Source of the DNA: Thermosediminibacter oceani DSM 16646
GTDB lineage: Bacteria; Bacillota; Thermosediminibacteria; Thermosediminibacterales; Thermosediminibacteraceae
Reading direction: 5' to 3'
Assembly (NCBI RefSeq): GCF_000144645.1
Contig: NC_014377.1
Span: forward strand, 1,674,001-1,738,000
Length of the DNA stretch: 64,000 nt
The translations under genes were made by a program, and so were the position numbers. The stretch's first letter is position 1. Each line of letters starts with the position of its first letter. Below the pieces are notes generated by a model that saw only the letters and a list, made by a program, of their open reading frames with translations, did no database searches and was not told the origin of the DNA. Below are positions 9,699 to 54,320 of this stretch, one piece after another.

Positions 9699-9719
9699 TG
9701 GCTAAAAAATAATTAAACC

Positions 9720-9859
9720 AGTCTTCTCCCATCCAGACTTTACTGTCGGCTCCGGAATTTCACCGGATCTGCCTTGCGGCTCGCGGGCTTAAGGCTTTCG
9801 CCTATCACCGCCGGTCAGGAATTGAAGGCTAAACGCCTTCTCACCTTGCCCCGAAGACT
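9720..9859 (-). ncRNA. FMN riboswitch (RFN element)
   Basis: On the minus strand the conserved RFN blocks appear in order: G-G-G-G-C-A-A-G-G-T-G, G-A-C-C-G-G-C-G-G-T-G-A-T, A-G-C-C-C-G-C-G-A-G, G-C-A-G-A-T-C-C-G-G-T-G, and C-T-G-G-A-T-G-G-G-A-G. GTCTTC and GAAGAC form the closing P1 stem. The long P2 arm carries an extra hairpin (aaggcg/cgcctt region near 9825-9840). It sits between a sigma-A promoter and the leader terminator upstream of ribD. Confidence 0.96.
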
Positions 9860-9890
9860 TTCGGAATGAATTTCATATTTAATTAACTTA

Positions 9891-38333: not shown

Positions 38334-38350
38334 AAGTAAATCGATGCGAT

Positions 38351-38446
38351 TCACGTGCTTCCCTACGCGGGCATTACCCCGTTCAGGTTCTGGGGTCGAA
38401 GCCCTGCCATCGGGCTTCCTCTCAGCCGAAGCTCCCCCAGCACGTT
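38351..38446 (-). ncRNA. TPP riboswitch (THI element)
   Basis: Minus strand blocks in order: GGGGGAGC, GCTGAGAGGAAG, the ACCC...AACCTGAACGGGTAAT core, GCCCGCGTAGGGAAG. ACGTGCT/AGCACGT closes P1. It lies between a sigma-A promoter and the leader terminator of thiT. Confidence 0.96.
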
Positions 38447-38479
38447 CAACATTTATCATTTATTATTTTATTTATATTT

Positions 38480-47306: not shown

Positions 47307-49457
47307 TTAAGTCCTTTCTTCCAACTTCTTTATTTTCAACAACCTGATTCCGTTGAGAGTCACCAGTAAAGTCGCTCCCATATCGGCCAGAATGGCCAGC
47401 CACAGCGTCAACCACCCCGGGAAAACGGCCGCCACCGCCAGGGCTTTAATGACCAGCGACAATGTTATATTCTGGCGTATCACCTGCAGTGCAGCTCTGC
47501 TCAGGCGGATCGTAAACGCCACTTTAGTCAGGTCGTCGGTCATTAACACTATGTCCGCCGTCTCAAGGGCCGTATCGGTACCGGTCCCGCCCATGGCTAT
47601 TCCTAAGGTAGCTGCAGCCAGTGCGGGAGCGTCATTTATACCATCCCCCACCATGGCAACCTTCCCGTATTTTTTTATCAAATCTTCGAGGGCTCTTACC
47701 TTATCCTGAGGCAGCAGTTCGGCTAAAAACTCATCGACACCGGCGCGGGCGGCTACAGCTTTAGCAGTGGCTTTATTATCGCCGGTAAGCATTATCGTCC
47801 GCTCGATGCCGGCGCGTTTGAGTAAGGCCAAAGCCTTTTTGCTCGTTTCCCTTATCTCGTCGGCAACGGCAATAATTCCTATAATACCGTTTTCCGTCCC
47901 CACCAGCATAGCCGTCTTGCCTTCTTCCTGAAGGCGCTTTACGTCCTCCGTTATTCCACCGGCCTCTACACCCAGTTCCTCAAAAAACTTCATATTTCCT
48001 ACAAATAGCGCCTCTCCGTCCACGGAACCTCTTGCCCCCCGGCCTGTGAAAGCAGTAAAATCTTCTGCCGGTATCATTTCTACACCCCGGGCTTCCGCGG
48101 CTTTAACTATGGCAACGGCAAGGGGGTGTTCCGATCGCTTTTCTACGCTGGCAGCCTTGCGAAGAACCTCTGTTTCAGATTCGTTACCTACAGCTATTAC
48201 ATCGGTAACCACCGGCTTTCCTCTCGTAAGAGTACCGGTCTTGTCAAGAGCGACAACCTTTAAAGAACCAGCTTCTTCAAGGTATATTCCGCCTTTTATT
48301 AAGACTCCGTTCCTTGCCGCGTTACCTATAGCACTTACTACAGCTACAGGCGTTGAAACCACAAGAGCGCACGGACACGATACCACCAGCAAAGCGAGGC
48401 CGCGGTACAGCCATGGCGTCCATTCATGGCCCAGGAAAAGCGGCGGCACCAGTGCTACGGCGCCGGCGAGCACAATCACTATTGGTGTATATACAGCTGC
48501 AAACCGGTCCACAAAAGCCTGAACCGGAGCGCGTCTTGTCTGGGCCTCCTCAACCAGGTGTATAATTTTCGCCAGGGTGGTATCCTGAACGAGTTTCGTA
48601 ACTTTTACTTCCAGCGAGCCGTGAGTGTTAATGGTCCCCGCATAAACCTCGTCACCGGGCCCCTTTTCGGCGGGTATCGATTCTCCGGTGATAGCAGCCT
48701 CGTTTATCGCCGACTCGCCCTTTAGTATGACCCCGTCCATGGCTATTTTCTCGCCGGGACGGATTACAATTATATCGCCAATATTAATTTCATCTACGGG
48801 GACATCCACTTCGCCCCACGGCTTTTTTATTCTTGCGGTTTTGGGTGCTATGTCCATGAGCAGGCGTATCGACCGTCTCGCTCTCTCCATGGTCCAGGAT
48901 TCCAGCATTTCCGAAACCGAGTACAGGAATGCCACAACGGCACCCTCCTCCAGCTCGCCGATTGCCACTGCTCCTATGACAGCTATGCTCATTAGAACGC
49001 TCATATTCAAATTAAGTCGTCTTAAAGAATAATAGGCCTTCCGGAAATTCTCCCAGCCCCCGGCGACCATGGCAAGCAGGAACAGAGGGACATAAAAGTA
49101 AGCTATCACACCCACTTTTCTCCCGATATAAGCCGCCAAAAGAGCAGCTGCGGATACCACCGTCCGGAGCAATTCTTTGTTTATCTTAATTCCTGTCCCC
49201 GCCTGAGCCCGCTCCTCTTTTTCCTCGGCCGGGAATATTTTATAGTTTTCTTTAAGGCCTTCCCGCCGGATAGCGTCAATGTCCACATTGCCTTCCACGG
49301 TGAGCCTACCCGTCGCCGGGTTTAAGACAGCCCTGGTAACACCGGGCAGTGCTGCCACGTTTCTTTCAAACTTGGCAGCACAATCGAGTCAGGTTATGCC
49401 TTCGACTCTGTACACCTTTTTTTCATTAACCCTGTATAGCTTTTCTTCAGCTCCCAT
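47307..49457 (-). CDS. Selenocysteine-containing P1B metal-transporting ATPase (Zn/Cd/Pb type)
   Basis: A 716-residue protein if TGA at 49389-49391 is read as selenocysteine (residue 23). The ATG at 49457 has GGAG 6 nt upstream. The HMA domain (about 1-80) reads V-E-G-I-T-U-L-D-C-A-A-K-F-E, so Sec replaces the first Cys of CxxC. After it come S-C-P-C-A-L (ion site), D-K-T-G-T-L-T (phosphorylation), S-E-H-P-L and G-D-G-I-N-D-A-P-A. The Asp near the end (D-M-G-A-T) suits ZntA/CadA-type zinc, cadmium or lead export. A SECIS-like hairpin starts 7 nt after the TGA. Without Sec insertion only a 22-residue peptide, or an internal GTG start at 49358 lacking the HMA motif, would be made. Confidence 0.9.
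49349..49381 (-). promoter_or_regulatory. Bacterial SECIS-like hairpin
   Basis: Minus strand: GTGCTGCCA pairs with TGGCAGCAC (9 perfect bp); an A/G mismatch follows, then GTTT/AAAC. The apical loop is GAAAG, beginning with G. From the TGA to the loop is 21 nt. Stem length, loop size, loop G and spacing all fall in the range of bacterial SECIS elements bound by SelB. Confidence 0.85.
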
Positions 49458-49679: not shown

Positions 49680-50603
49680 ATGATTAACGAAAACCGGATC
49701 CGACTCTGGCGTGGCTTCTGGCAGCTGGCCGATCCTAAAATATGGGTCGCTTCAACGGTTCCTATGGCTGTGGCCGCCGCCCTTGCCTATAGTCTCGAGG
49801 GAACGTTTAACCTGTACTGGTTCCTTTGGAGTCTGGTGGGGGTATACCTAATAGAAATAGGTAAAAATGCGGTAAACGAATTTGTAGACTTCGAATCCGG
49901 CGTTGATACATCCATTACGCCTGACAAAAGAACCCCTTTCAGCGGCGGGAAAAAAGTCATAGTCGACGGAATACTGACCCTATCGGAAGTTAAGGTAATC
50001 GCCGCTGTTACCATGATTCTGGCGGGCCTCGTTGGTTTGTATGTAGTCTTTGCAAGAGAACCCGAGGTATTATGGATAGGTATCGCCGGTTATGCCATTT
50101 CCATATTCTACAGCCTTCCGCCTGTAAAACTCTGCTACAGGGGCTTCGGCGAACTCGCTGTGGGGTTAACCTTCGGACCTCTCGTGCTGTGCGGAACTTA
50201 CCTTGTCCAGACTTATAAAATCTCTACCGAAGCCGTCCTGTGTTCATTAATTCTGGGACTTCTCATCGCTAACGTCCTCTGGATCAACCAGTTCCCCGAC
50301 TACGAAGCGGACATGATGGGTCAAAAGAAAAACTGGGTTGTAAGGATGGGCAAAAAAAAGGCCACCTCTGTGTTTGCCGCACTTTTTACGGCGGCCTTTG
50401 CTCTGAGTGCTATACTTGCTTTCATTGCGGGCAACCCATTTTTCCTTTTGCCGTTATGCGTCTTTCCCCTTGCCAGGCGTGCCGTTGATGTCGCACGGCG
50501 GTATTACGACGATATTCCGAGGCTTATAGAAGCCAACGCTAAGACAGTCCAAGTATACCAGCTGACCGGTTTAACCCTCATAATCGCCGCCCTCTTGGGT
50601 TAA
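49680..50603 (+). CDS. UbiA family prenyltransferase (demethylmenaquinone type)
   Basis: A 307-residue membrane enzyme with about eight TM helices. The two Asp-rich prenyl-diphosphate motifs are N-A-V-N-E-F-V-D-F-E-S-G-V-D and N-Q-F-P-D-Y-E-A-D-M. It would attach a polyprenyl chain to a naphthoquinone precursor. Located next to a flavinylated lipoprotein, a polyprenyl synthase and NDH-2, it corresponds in position to DmkA of the flavin-based electron-transfer locus. GAGGAGGG lies before the ATG. No other menaquinone-synthesis gene is in the window. Confidence 0.9.
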   Translation: MINENRIRLWRGFWQLADPKIWVASTVPMAVAAALAYSLEGTFNLYWFLWSLVGVYLIEIGKNAVNEFVDFESGVDTSITPDKRTPFSGGKKVIVDGILTLSEVKVIAAVTMILAGLVGLYVVFAREPEVLWIGIAGYAISIFYSLPPVKLCYRGFGELAVGLTFGPLVLCGTYLVQTYKISTEAVLCSLILGLLIANVLWINQFPDYEADMMGQKKNWVVRMGKKKATSVFAALFTAAFALSAILAFIAGNPFFLLPLCVFPLARRAVDVARRYYDDIPRLIEANAKTVQVYQLTGLTLIIAALLG

Positions 50604-50641
50604 AAAGTTCAAAAAAAAAATATTACCCGAAACAAAAAAAT

Positions 50642-50671
50642 TTAGAAGGATTTTGCCTTTTGATGTATAAT
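50642..50671 (+). promoter_or_regulatory. Candidate promoter of the FMN lipoprotein gene
   Basis: TTAGAA, 18 bp, TATAAT, 45 bp upstream of the lipoprotein start. The -35 match is moderate. Confidence 0.4.
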
Positions 50672-50716
50672 ATAATTAAAGAGAAGCAACAAATTATTCG
50701 ATACAGGGGGGTTATT

Positions 50717-51532
50717 ATGAAAAAATTACTGTCACTAACAATCGCACTTCTCCTGGTCGTAACCCTTGTAGCCGGCTGCAGTTCCCAAAACTCGCAACAG
50801 CAGCCGCAGGATCAGCAAAATCAGCAGCAAACTGAGCAGCCTCAGCAGGGAGCACTGCAGGACGGCACCTACTACGCAGAAGACAAGGAGTTCGATGACC
50901 ATGGCTGGAAGGGTCTTGTGACCGTAATTGTGAAAGATGGAAAAATAACAAACGTGTTCTACGATGAAATCAACCAGGAAGGCAAGCTGAAGAGCTTCGA
51001 TCCAGAATACGGTTCCAGGATGAAAGAGAACTCCGGCACCACACCGCTGGATGTTTATCCGAAACTGGAGCAGGCCCTGGTAGAAAAGCAGAAACCCGAA
51101 GATGTTGAAGCCGTTTCTGGCGCCACGAGCTCTTCTGACAGATTCAAGAGCCTGGTAGCCGAAGCACTGAAAGGCTCACCAGTTGAAGCCAAAGACGGCT
51201 TAAAGGACGGCCTTTACAAGGCATCGGAAGCCGACTTTGACGACCACGGCTGGAAGGCAATGGCCGCGGTAATCGTAAAAGACGGCAAAATTCAGTCTGT
51301 ATTCTTCGATGAGGTCAACAAAGAAGACGGCCATTACAAATCGACCGACCAGGAGTACGCCAAGAATATGGAAGCAAAATCGGGCTCCACTCCCACAAAA
51401 GCGGTTGAGGCTTTGTCCAAGTCCCTCGTAGAAAAGCAGAATCCGGAACAGGTGGATTCGGTGACGGGTGCCACCGGAACTACCACCAAGTTCAAGGATT
51501 TGATGACAAAAGCCCTTTCTCTGGCAAAATAA
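50717..51532 (+). CDS. Lipoprotein with two FMN-binding (flavinylation) domains, PplA-like
   Basis: A 271-residue surface protein. A signal peptide with lipobox L-V-A-G-C puts the lipidated Cys at residue 21. A Gln-rich flexible linker follows (about 22-48). Two homologous FMN-bind domains occupy about 50-155 and 165-271, each with D-D-H-G-W-K and a flavinylation site: A-V-S-G-A-T-S-S and S-V-T-G-A-T-G-T. ApbE-type transferases link FMN to the Thr of such motifs. Two tandem domains on a lipoprotein match PplA, the extracellular electron shuttle of Listeria. No ApbE gene is in the window. GGGGGG lies 5 nt before the ATG. Confidence 0.9.
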   Translation: MKKLLSLTIALLLVVTLVAGCSSQNSQQQPQDQQNQQQTEQPQQGALQDGTYYAEDKEFDDHGWKGLVTVIVKDGKITNVFYDEINQEGKLKSFDPEYGSRMKENSGTTPLDVYPKLEQALVEKQKPEDVEAVSGATSSSDRFKSLVAEALKGSPVEAKDGLKDGLYKASEADFDDHGWKAMAAVIVKDGKIQSVFFDEVNKEDGHYKSTDQEYAKNMEAKSGSTPTKAVEALSKSLVEKQNPEQVDSVTGATGTTTKFKDLMTKALSLAK

Positions 51533-51553
51533 TAGCCTGAAAAAGGAAATCCG

Positions 51554-51587
51554 AAGGGCATACTCTAATGTATGCCCTTTCTTTTAT
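51554..51587 (+). terminator. Terminator of the FMN lipoprotein gene
   Basis: AAGGGCATAC and GTATGCCCTT form a 10-bp stem with a 6-nt loop, then TCTTTTAT. It separates the lipoprotein gene from the polyprenyl synthase, which therefore depends on read-through or its own start. Confidence 0.9.
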
Positions 51588-51626
51588 AATGTAACGGAAT
51601 TTTATATAGAAAGAGTGAAGTTTCGC

Positions 51627-52598
51627 ATGGCAAGATTCGATTTTTACCGTGAGATCTCCCGTGAAATGTCCTGCCTTGAGGAAGAACTTCTCTCATCGAT
51701 AAAGACAAATGAACCTTTTCTCTCGGAACCTTTAGAAAGGACTATAAAGGCTGGCGGCAAAAGGATAAGGCCCGCTCTGGTGTACCTTTCAGCCAGATTC
51801 GGAAATTACGACTATGAAAAGATCAAACCCCTTGCGGTAGCTGTGGAGCTGGTACATACGGCCACATTGATCCACGATGACATCGTTGACGATTCCCCCC
51901 TTAGGCGGGGCATCTCAACGGTACAGGCTGCTATCGGAAAGGACGCGGCGGTCTACGCTGGAGACTACGTACTTGCCAGGACTTTCAAGATACTCGTAGA
52001 CCACGGCGATTTCGACATTTTAAAGTCCGTATCCAGTGTACTTTACAGAGTATGCGAAGGTGAAGTGCGTCAGAAAAGGGAGGCCTTCGATATCACTATA
52101 AGCTTTTTAGATTACGCCCGGCGCATCCGGAAAAAAACCGCCCTCCTCTTCGCCCTTAGCTGCGAACTGGGAGCAAGGGGAGCGAAAGCTGATCCCCGCA
52201 CTATATCTGCTCTAAAAAAATACGGCATTCTGTTGGGAATGGCTTTTCAGGTAATGGACGATATCCTGGATCTAACTGAAGACGAAAGCCGGAGCGGAAA
52301 ACCCAGGGGAAATGATATAAAAGAAGGGGTAATCACTTTACCCCTCCTGTACGCTCTGAACAATCAATCCACTGCGCTAGAGCTGCGGGAACTTCTATCG
52401 GATAAACACCGGATAGACGACAGCACAATCAGCACCATAATCGAAATTGTAAAGGAATCGGGAGGAATAGAATACGCCCGACATATAGCCGGGCGTTACG
52501 TAGAAAAATCAAAAGAAAATCTATTAGTTCTTGAAGACAGTCCCGCCAGGAGTTCTCTCATGCTCCTAGCCGACTACGTTGTGGATAGAACCAGGTAG
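51627..52598 (+). CDS. Polyprenyl diphosphate synthase (DmkB/HepT-like)
   Basis: A 323-residue trans-prenyltransferase. The first Asp-rich motif is H-D-D-I-V-D-D-S and the second F-Q-V-M-D-D-I-L-D; G-K-R-I-R-P is the IPP site. It would make the side chain used by the adjacent UbiA enzyme. The start is uncertain: ATG 51627 or GTG 51615, neither with a strong RBS. The 3' end overlaps the convergent NDH-2 gene by 33 bp. Confidence 0.9.
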   Translation: MARFDFYREISREMSCLEEELLSSIKTNEPFLSEPLERTIKAGGKRIRPALVYLSARFGNYDYEKIKPLAVAVELVHTATLIHDDIVDDSPLRRGISTVQAAIGKDAAVYAGDYVLARTFKILVDHGDFDILKSVSSVLYRVCEGEVRQKREAFDITISFLDYARRIRKKTALLFALSCELGARGAKADPRTISALKKYGILLGMAFQVMDDILDLTEDESRSGKPRGNDIKEGVITLPLLYALNNQSTALELRELLSDKHRIDDSTISTIIEIVKESGGIEYARHIAGRYVEKSKENLLVLEDSPARSSLMLLADYVVDRTR

Positions 52599-54320
52599 CG
52601 CCGGTTTTCGGCCTCCCCCTCTGACAATCCTCTTTACAAGCCTGGAGATCCAGGGGATCACCCAGCGGTCGAGTCCGAAGGAATGGCCTGCACCCGAGAA
52701 GCACACCGCCAGCGACACCATAAAGAACCACATGTCTCCCGAACCGGAGATCATGAAATTAATCAGCATGAAGAGCGATCCCAGTGAAGCCAGCGATGTA
52801 AACAGACCTAAGATGAGGCACGTACCTATCGCCAGCTCGCTAAGCGTTATTACCGTCTGGAAAAACAGCGCGTTGGGGAAGATGAATTTTTCAACGAAAT
52901 TGGCATACCATTCCGGCGTATTCGGCCCTATAGGACTTGTAGACGCTCCTGCTACCAGCTTATCTCCTGCCGCCAGCCATCCGGCGTGTACCTTTTCCAT
53001 ACCCGAAACCAGCCACCTGTAGCCCAGGTAAATCCTCAGAATAGCCAACCATACCATACTGGTGCTAACGCCTATATTTTCAACGATGAAAGATTTCCCA
53101 CGGTTTTTCCGGAAGAACTGATGCCCGATATATTCCCTTACGAAACCTAAACCGCCGACACCGAAAAGATAGTGCATGTCGGCCAAATGCTTTATGAAAG
53201 TAGCTATAAAGCCGGTAAGTTTACGTCCCATTACCTCGGCGACGCAGTACCTTTCACCTATCGAGACCATATTCCCGTGGAGGTTGAGTTTGAGCGCTTT
53301 CTTGGGCTTACCGGTAATATCGGCGGCTATGTTATGAGCCGCACACTCGCCGGACTGCATCGCAGATTCGACCAGCGCAGGCATGACGAAATTTTTTTCA
53401 TTCACGTAGAAGCTTACGTCCCCTATCGCGTATATACCTTTTTGACTGGTCTCAAGGTATTCATTGACCTTTATCCTACCCCGGCCACCGGTCTCCAGCC
53501 CCAGCTTTTCGGCGAATGAGTTCCCCCTCACACCACCGGTCCATATAAGGGTCTGGGTTTTTATTTTTTCACCGGTTTTGAGGGTAAAGCCGTCGGGTTC
53601 AACGCTGACAATGGGAGAATTCAGGATTATTTTCACGCCATGCTTTTCGAGATAAGAAGTCGCCTTTTTGATGAGCTCATCGGACAGGTTGGGAAGGATT
53701 TTGGGGAGCGCTTCCACCACCATCAGTGATACTTCACTGCGGTCTATGCCGTATTCCCTACAAAGGTCTTCAACCCACTCCACCAGCTCTCCCACCATCT
53801 CGATGCCGGTAAATCCACCGCCGCCGACCACGAAGGTGAGATATTCACGCCTTCTTTTCTCATCGACCTCGTATCTGGCCTTTTCGAACATCTCTATTAC
53901 TCGCTGCTTAATCCTCAACGCATCTTCGTGCGACCAGAGCGTAAAGGCGTGTTCTTTCATACCCGGAATGCCGAAATACTCCGGTTCGCTGCCGCAGGCG
54001 AGTATAAGGTAGTCGAAGGTGTAGTCCGCCTTTCTGCCCCTCAGTGTTCTGGTCTTCAAATCGGCATCGTGGATTTCATCCACTACCAGCCTAACCCCGG
54101 TCCCCTCCAGAGCCTTCTCCAGCGAATATAGCACTCCTTCCGGTTTTACCCTGTTGCCGGCAACCAGGTGAAGCTCAGTCAGGTAAACCTGATAAGGGGA
54201 TCTGTTTATGAGGTAGATCTCCACGTCGTCTCTCTTGGCCAGGAGCTTGTTCAGCTTTTGAGCTGCCGTCAGTCCTCCATATCCACCTCCCAGCACAAGG
54301 ATTCGCTTTTTATCCGCCAT
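52566..54320 (-). CDS. Type II NADH dehydrogenase with DoxX-like membrane tail (Ndh2)
   Basis: A 584-residue flavoprotein. FAD-binding G-G-G-Y-G-G (about 10-15), A-C-G-S-E-P-E-Y-F, NAD-binding V-V-G-G-G-G-F-T-G-I-E (about 160), and Y-A-I-G-D-V form the NDH-2 core (about 1-405). The C-terminal 160 residues hold about four TM helices resembling DoxX. NDH-2 proteins with an extra membrane region pass NADH electrons to a dedicated quinone pool in flavin-based extracellular electron transfer. GGGGG lies before the ATG. It is convergent to the polyprenyl synthase. Confidence 0.92.
   Translation of the reverse strand: MADKKRILVLGGGYGGLTAAQKLNKLLAKRDDVEIYLINRSPYQVYLTELHLVAGNRVKPEGVLYSLEKALEGTGVRLVVDEIHDADLKTRTLRGRKADYTFDYLILACGSEPEYFGIPGMKEHAFTLWSHEDALRIKQRVIEMFEKARYEVDEKRRREYLTFVVGGGGFTGIEMVGELVEWVEDLCREYGIDRSEVSLMVVEALPKILPNLSDELIKKATSYLEKHGVKIILNSPIVSVEPDGFTLKTGEKIKTQTLIWTGGVRGNSFAEKLGLETGGRGRIKVNEYLETSQKGIYAIGDVSFYVNEKNFVMPALVESAMQSGECAAHNIAADITGKPKKALKLNLHGNMVSIGERYCVAEVMGRKLTGFIATFIKHLADMHYLFGVGGLGFVREYIGHQFFRKNRGKSFIVENIGVSTSMVWLAILRIYLGYRWLVSGMEKVHAGWLAAGDKLVAGASTSPIGPNTPEWYANFVEKFIFPNALFFQTVITLSELAIGTCLILGLFTSLASLGSLFMLINFMISGSGDMWFFMVSLAVCFSGAGHSFGLDRWVIPWISRLVKRIVRGGGRKPALPGSIHNVVG

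Follow-up and report, generated by a model that had tools for sequence, protein, structure and literature searches.

P1B-2 metal ATPases of the ZntA/CadA type export Zn, Cd and Pb and exhibit a cysteine at the first position of the C-x-x-C motif in their heavy-metal-associated (HMA) domain. A predicted selenoprotein family named 'Cation-transporting ATPase E1-E2', with a U-x-x-C motif and ABB15669.1 as reference protein, is listed in the Table of PMC9312934 and, also as 'predicted', in Table 1 of PMC13188914, and an entry in PMC5029168 gives 32 such proteins in 25 organisms. These sources bear out the suspicion of the initial annotation of the locus described here that related selenoprotein ATPases may already be listed. 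A 2026 review places the family among the transporters linked to metal resistance, urges experimental work, and covers MerT/MerP-like mercuric-transport proteins and CopZ-like proteins in which selenocysteine (Sec) likewise replaces cysteine in soft-metal handling, although these are different proteins and not ATP-driven pumps (PMC13188914). The ATPase gene studied here, located in a 64,000-nucleotide stretch of the Thermosediminibacter oceani genome (the window), belongs to the same protein family as the listed ATPases (TIGR01525/COG2217), has the same U-x-x-C motif and the same dependence on Sec, and shows no categorical difference from them. With ZntA (4UMV) and CadA it has in common the whole architecture, the CPC motif, the Lys and Asp residues and the single N-terminal HMA domain, but it has Sec where they have the first Cys of the HMA motif. 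The gene is a well-supported new example of an already listed predicted selenoprotein family and not a new kind of selenoprotein.

The host is a deep-sea, heat-loving bacterium. The genome of T. oceani JW/IW-1228P has been published (2,280,035 bp; PMC3035372), and the genome carrying the window is closed, at 2,280,035 bp. When TGA is translated as U, the minus-strand frame encodes a P1B-2 (ZntA/CadA-like) ATPase (Table 1), which matches the ATPase profile TIGR01525 with 622 bits (cut-off 346) and the cadmium subfamily TIGR01512 with 535 bits (cut-off 313). Its best PDB match is ZntA 4UMV (E 4e-131), with whose transport-site residues the CPC motif of TM4 and, in the C-terminal transport helices, the Lys of NITLSLVIK and the Asp of DMGATLLV align, and the sequence suggests a pump specific for Zn, Cd and Pb. 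The single HMA domain is N-terminal, and the sequence around the TGA reads MGAEEKLYRVNEKKVYRVEGIT-U-LDCAAKF, with ULDC at residues 23-26. Without read-through, the listed open reading frame starts at GTG 49358 and the metal-binding motif is missing; an ordinary call would therefore cut the pump short and place its start inside the SECIS hairpin.

Table 1. Features of the window; positions are counted from its first nucleotide.
Feature	Position	Strand	Remarks
Predicted selenoprotein, P1B-2 heavy-metal ATPase gene	47307..49457	-	716 aa, Sec23; single in-frame TGA; TIGR01525; ZntA 4UMV
Shine-Dalgarno-like GGGGAG	49469-49464	-	6 nt 5' of ATG 49457
HMA metal-binding domain with U-x-x-C	49266..49415	-	Residues about 15-64; Pfam PF00403
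TGA (predicted selenocysteine) codon 23	49391-49389	-	First Cys of HMA CxxC; TGA/Cys exchange in homologues
Bacterial SECIS hairpin (predicted)	49349..49381	-	13 pairs, GAAAG loop 49367-49363
UbiA/MenA-like prenyltransferase	49680-50603	+	Adjoins ATPase
Lipoprotein, two FMN-binding domains, PplA-like	50717-51532	+	198 bits, below model cut-off 325
Polyprenyl diphosphate synthase	51630-52598	+	
NDH-2-like NADH dehydrogenase, DoxX-type C-terminus	54320-52566	-	
FMN riboswitch	9717-9862	-	Above Rfam gathering score
TPP riboswitch	38343-38448	-	Above Rfam gathering score

The initial annotation had extended the frame upstream past the TGA to an ATG with a ribosome-binding site, had described the HMA domain as intact save for a TGA at the first Cys (G-I-T-TGA-L-D-C), and had placed a hairpin of 9 pairs, a mismatch and 4 pairs, with a 5-nt loop starting with G, just downstream. 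All of this was recovered. The ATG is preceded by a Shine-Dalgarno-like sequence, as is the equivalent ATG of Thermosediminibacter litoriperuensis (GGAGGG), and the Pfam HMA match spans the TGA (43.5 bits, cut-off 24.8, E 4e-11). With regard to the hairpin, the agreement is exact: a spacer of 7 nt (49388-49382) separates the TGA from a lower stem of 9 pairs formed by GUGCUGCCA (49381-49373) and UGGCAGCAC (49357-49349), above which lie an A.G mismatch (49372/49358) and an upper stem of 4 pairs, GUUU/AAAC (49371-49368 / 49362-49359). Bacterial SECIS elements usually have a small loop with a G in its first two bases, about 16-37 nt after the UGA; the GAAAG loop, which begins 21 nt past the TGA, agrees with this rule. 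The fold has a predicted energy of -21.4 kcal/mol (z = -3.84), equalled by 1 of 200 dinucleotide shuffles. Rfam at its gathering thresholds gave no match at the ATPase locus, and hence no curated model backing the SECIS.

The sel genes, whose presence the initial annotation left to be confirmed, are all found in the genome: selA, selB and tRNA-Sec are adjacent at 762006-765488, and selD is also encoded. The frames of SelD, FdhA (formate dehydrogenase, with the context CARLUHAP) and GrdA (glycine reductase protein A) each exhibit one in-frame TGA. As the Sec apparatus is full and these TGAs are single, selenocysteine use in this genome is of the usual kind. A general reassignment of UGA was considered and is unsupported in view of the same genes.

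Homologues were sampled from 60 relatives, from 399 genomes of the phylum and from a further set of named genomes. Among the 60 relatives and the phylum genomes, orthologues carry either TGA or a Cys codon at this HMA position, and when 123 homologues were scored, with U or C in the motif as a requirement, 46 had Sec and 77 had Cys at the identical codon. In the HMA alignment C23 and C26 are invariant, and D25 is near-invariant. The TGA occurs independently in T. litoriperuensis (L098), the nearest named relative of the window genome, in a metagenome-assembled genome (MAG) of the Thermosediminibacteraceae, in Desulfofundulus thermobenzoicus and in many Bacillales, which include Neobacillus, Peribacillus and Halalkalibacter; further Sec forms are found in actinobacterial and Coriobacteriia MAGs. 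In the ATPase of L086/G072, which we take to be Carboxydothermus hydrogenoformans, the source of reference protein ABB15669.1, U occupies the HMA residue equivalent to that of the window protein. On a FastTree tree of the 123 homologues, built with the Sec/Cys codon masked, the Sec forms lie within the Bacillales CadA-like Cys forms, and the label requires at least 17 switches, compared with a mean of 37 for shuffled labels; branches with strong support make 9 of the switches unavoidable. A single genome, that of Neobacillus pocheonensis, has both a Sec form (L130) and a Cys form (L152). Because closely related organisms, and here a single genome, contain the two forms, they offer a natural matched pair on the role of selenium in the metal-binding domain. 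In a genome of the same genus (G001), a second TGA is the ordinary C-terminal stop at residue 712.

The hairpin accompanies the TGA and not the HMA domain. Whether homologues with either codon would conserve the hairpin had been left open in the initial annotation; TGA relatives have it, and Cys relatives as a group do not. Among the first 50 distinct loci, the mean folding energy was -16.0 kcal/mol for Sec forms (z -2.2) versus -9.7 for Cys forms (z +0.2), and for all 123 homologues the mean values were -14.3 (z -1.74) and -7.7 (z 0.01), with a Mann-Whitney p of about 1e-9 that ignores relatedness and is therefore optimistic. Two SECIS architectures are observed among the Sec forms, that of the window and a second one with the stem 5 nt further on. 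In the window type (10 sequences), 90% of the cells are paired and 3 pairs are altered on both sides, versus 0 in controls slid by -3 to +2, with 2 for the +3 slide; for the second type (G036, G154, G120, G207, G231 and G183), 5 pairs are changed on both sides, versus at most 2 in the slides. Several of the pair-keeping changes are silent at both codons, such as Ala GCU/GCA in the window and GCC/GCG in T. litoriperuensis. The genome G282, which has the Cys form and gave no selA match, exhibits a hairpin remnant (z -1.7), and its sequence looks like a recent change from Sec to Cys. The same ATPase (L052) also has an in-frame TGA at residue 346, a Trp in the window protein, which could be a nonsense mutation, an error or something else.

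selA is present in almost every genome with the Sec form, and less often in those with the Cys form. In the phylum set, 23 of 24 genomes with the Sec form gave a selA match, as did 25 of 30 with the Cys form, the latter including the HMA-truncated G004, G006 and G008. The named set gave 20 of 22 versus 8 of 26 (p 3e-5), and the pooled counts were 43 of 46 versus 33 of 56 (Fisher p 7e-5). Three Sec-form genomes gave no match to selA: G225, the small MAG of an actinobacterium (L104) and that of Halalkalibacterium halodurans DSM 497 (L114). Gaps in the assemblies, wrongly assigned contigs or gene decay may account for them. In the last of these, the Sec-form ATPase, with its hairpin, lies on an 8.7-kb contig, which is possibly foreign; the gene may alternatively have been transferred recently.

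Based on the exchange of TGA and Cys, the hairpin tied to the TGA and the linkage to selA, the reading of the gene as encoding a selenoprotein, made in the initial annotation, is supported. The window gene very probably encodes a Sec-containing P1B-2 metal exporter, in which Sec would be inserted by means of the hairpin and the selenolate would act as a ligand. SelB, acting on the hairpin just past the UGA, would bring Sec-tRNA(Sec) to codon 23, and the comparative evidence indicates that the ribosome then reads through and produces a pump with U-x-x-C instead of C-x-x-C in its cytosolic HMA domain. Most likely, the selenolate would belong to a pair of soft ligands, which would take up divalent soft metal (Cd, Pb, Zn and possibly Hg) and regulate or feed the CPC/Asp transport site in the membrane. 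A by-product of this coding would be that synthesis of the complete pump depends on the selenium supply. The initial annotation had proposed that Sec may change the affinity for Hg, Cd or Zn, or may make transport depend on selenium.

If the TGA were instead a real stop, a shorter, HMA-less pump would be translated from GTG 49358, where the automatic open reading frame begins, and the upstream frame would be a relic. Such a pump would be viable, as G004, G006 and G008 are close relatives with natural pumps in which the HMA domain is mostly lost. Nevertheless, this GTG is part of the hairpin and lacks a good Shine-Dalgarno sequence, the hairpin occurs together with the TGA, and the TGA recurs across families at the identical codon, with Cys as the sole alternative in the 123 homologues, which were scored on the condition of a U or C in the motif. 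Between the window and T. litoriperuensis, the codons from the ATG to the TGA exhibit 4 synonymous and 2 nonsynonymous differences, in contrast to 3 synonymous and 10 nonsynonymous differences in the 22 codons 5' of the ATG. As the change is mostly synonymous, unlike in the codons before the ATG, the 22 codons upstream of the TGA are under constraint at the protein level, which argues against a stop and makes this reading highly improbable. A pseudogene is ruled out by the independent TGA occurrences and the coding-type conservation upstream. A sequencing or assembly error, with TGT or TGC as the true codon, would need only a single-base change to restore Cys, but the same TGA in the independently sequenced T. 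litoriperuensis, the Thermosediminibacteraceae MAG, D. thermobenzoicus and many Bacillales, dozens of genomes in all, leaves it a negligible probability.

A more serious alternative, though still an unlikely one, accepts the Sec residue and regards it as a redox switch, in which a U-x-x-C selenenylsulfide gates metal binding, and not as a stronger ligand. Most uncharacterised prokaryotic selenoproteins, U-x-x-C proteins included, are thought to be redox proteins (PMC13188914), and in the many hosts that are anaerobes a Se-S pair could respond to oxidants. However, the Sec occupies the position that classically provides a metal ligand in HMA domains, the Cys at the second position is kept, with an Asp directly before it in many members, and metal-ligand roles for Sec are named for other metal-resistance selenoproteins (PMC13188914). 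These points favour Sec as a metal ligand of the exporter.

The Bacillales Sec forms (L114-L177) exhibit an additional feature downstream of the SECIS loop. At codons +13 to +16, identity at synonymous sites is 100% where the amino acid is shared, versus 22-53% in Cys forms; these frozen HLDG codons are mostly CAC CTG GAT GG. and lie 3' of a short GTTC-loop-GAAC hairpin. Silent-site identity over codons +1 to +15 is 0.71 in Sec and 0.43 in Cys forms, compared with 0.51 and 0.41 over codons +16 to +33. Shared ancestry accounts for part of the identity in Bacillales, but its peak is sharp and local, as would fit an extended RNA element. We found no published description of synonymous sites frozen in this way 3' of the SECIS loop in Bacillales members. 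It is conceivable, though doubtful at present, that Sec in CadA/ZntA pumps is a frequently re-evolved switch, with an extended recoding element in Bacillales, by which selenium tunes soft-metal export; if so, the Bacillales element would count as an atypical SECIS variant, either long-range or pseudoknotted.

Orthologues from three genomes of the same family as the window genome (L021, L022 and L024 from G006, G004 and G008, respectively) have lost most of the HMA domain. In these proteins, either GITCPDCAARFED is fused straight to the membrane portion or the domain is replaced by CTLCHCGHCH, a short stretch of Cys and His. Just upstream of the Sec-form ATPase L029 (G036), a frame resembles by eye an ArsR/SmtB-like repressor (ELCVCDL...), which would suggest metal-induced expression. 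In the window itself, the genes beside the ATPase, from 49680 to 54320, form a set that resembles a locus for flavin-based extracellular electron transfer.
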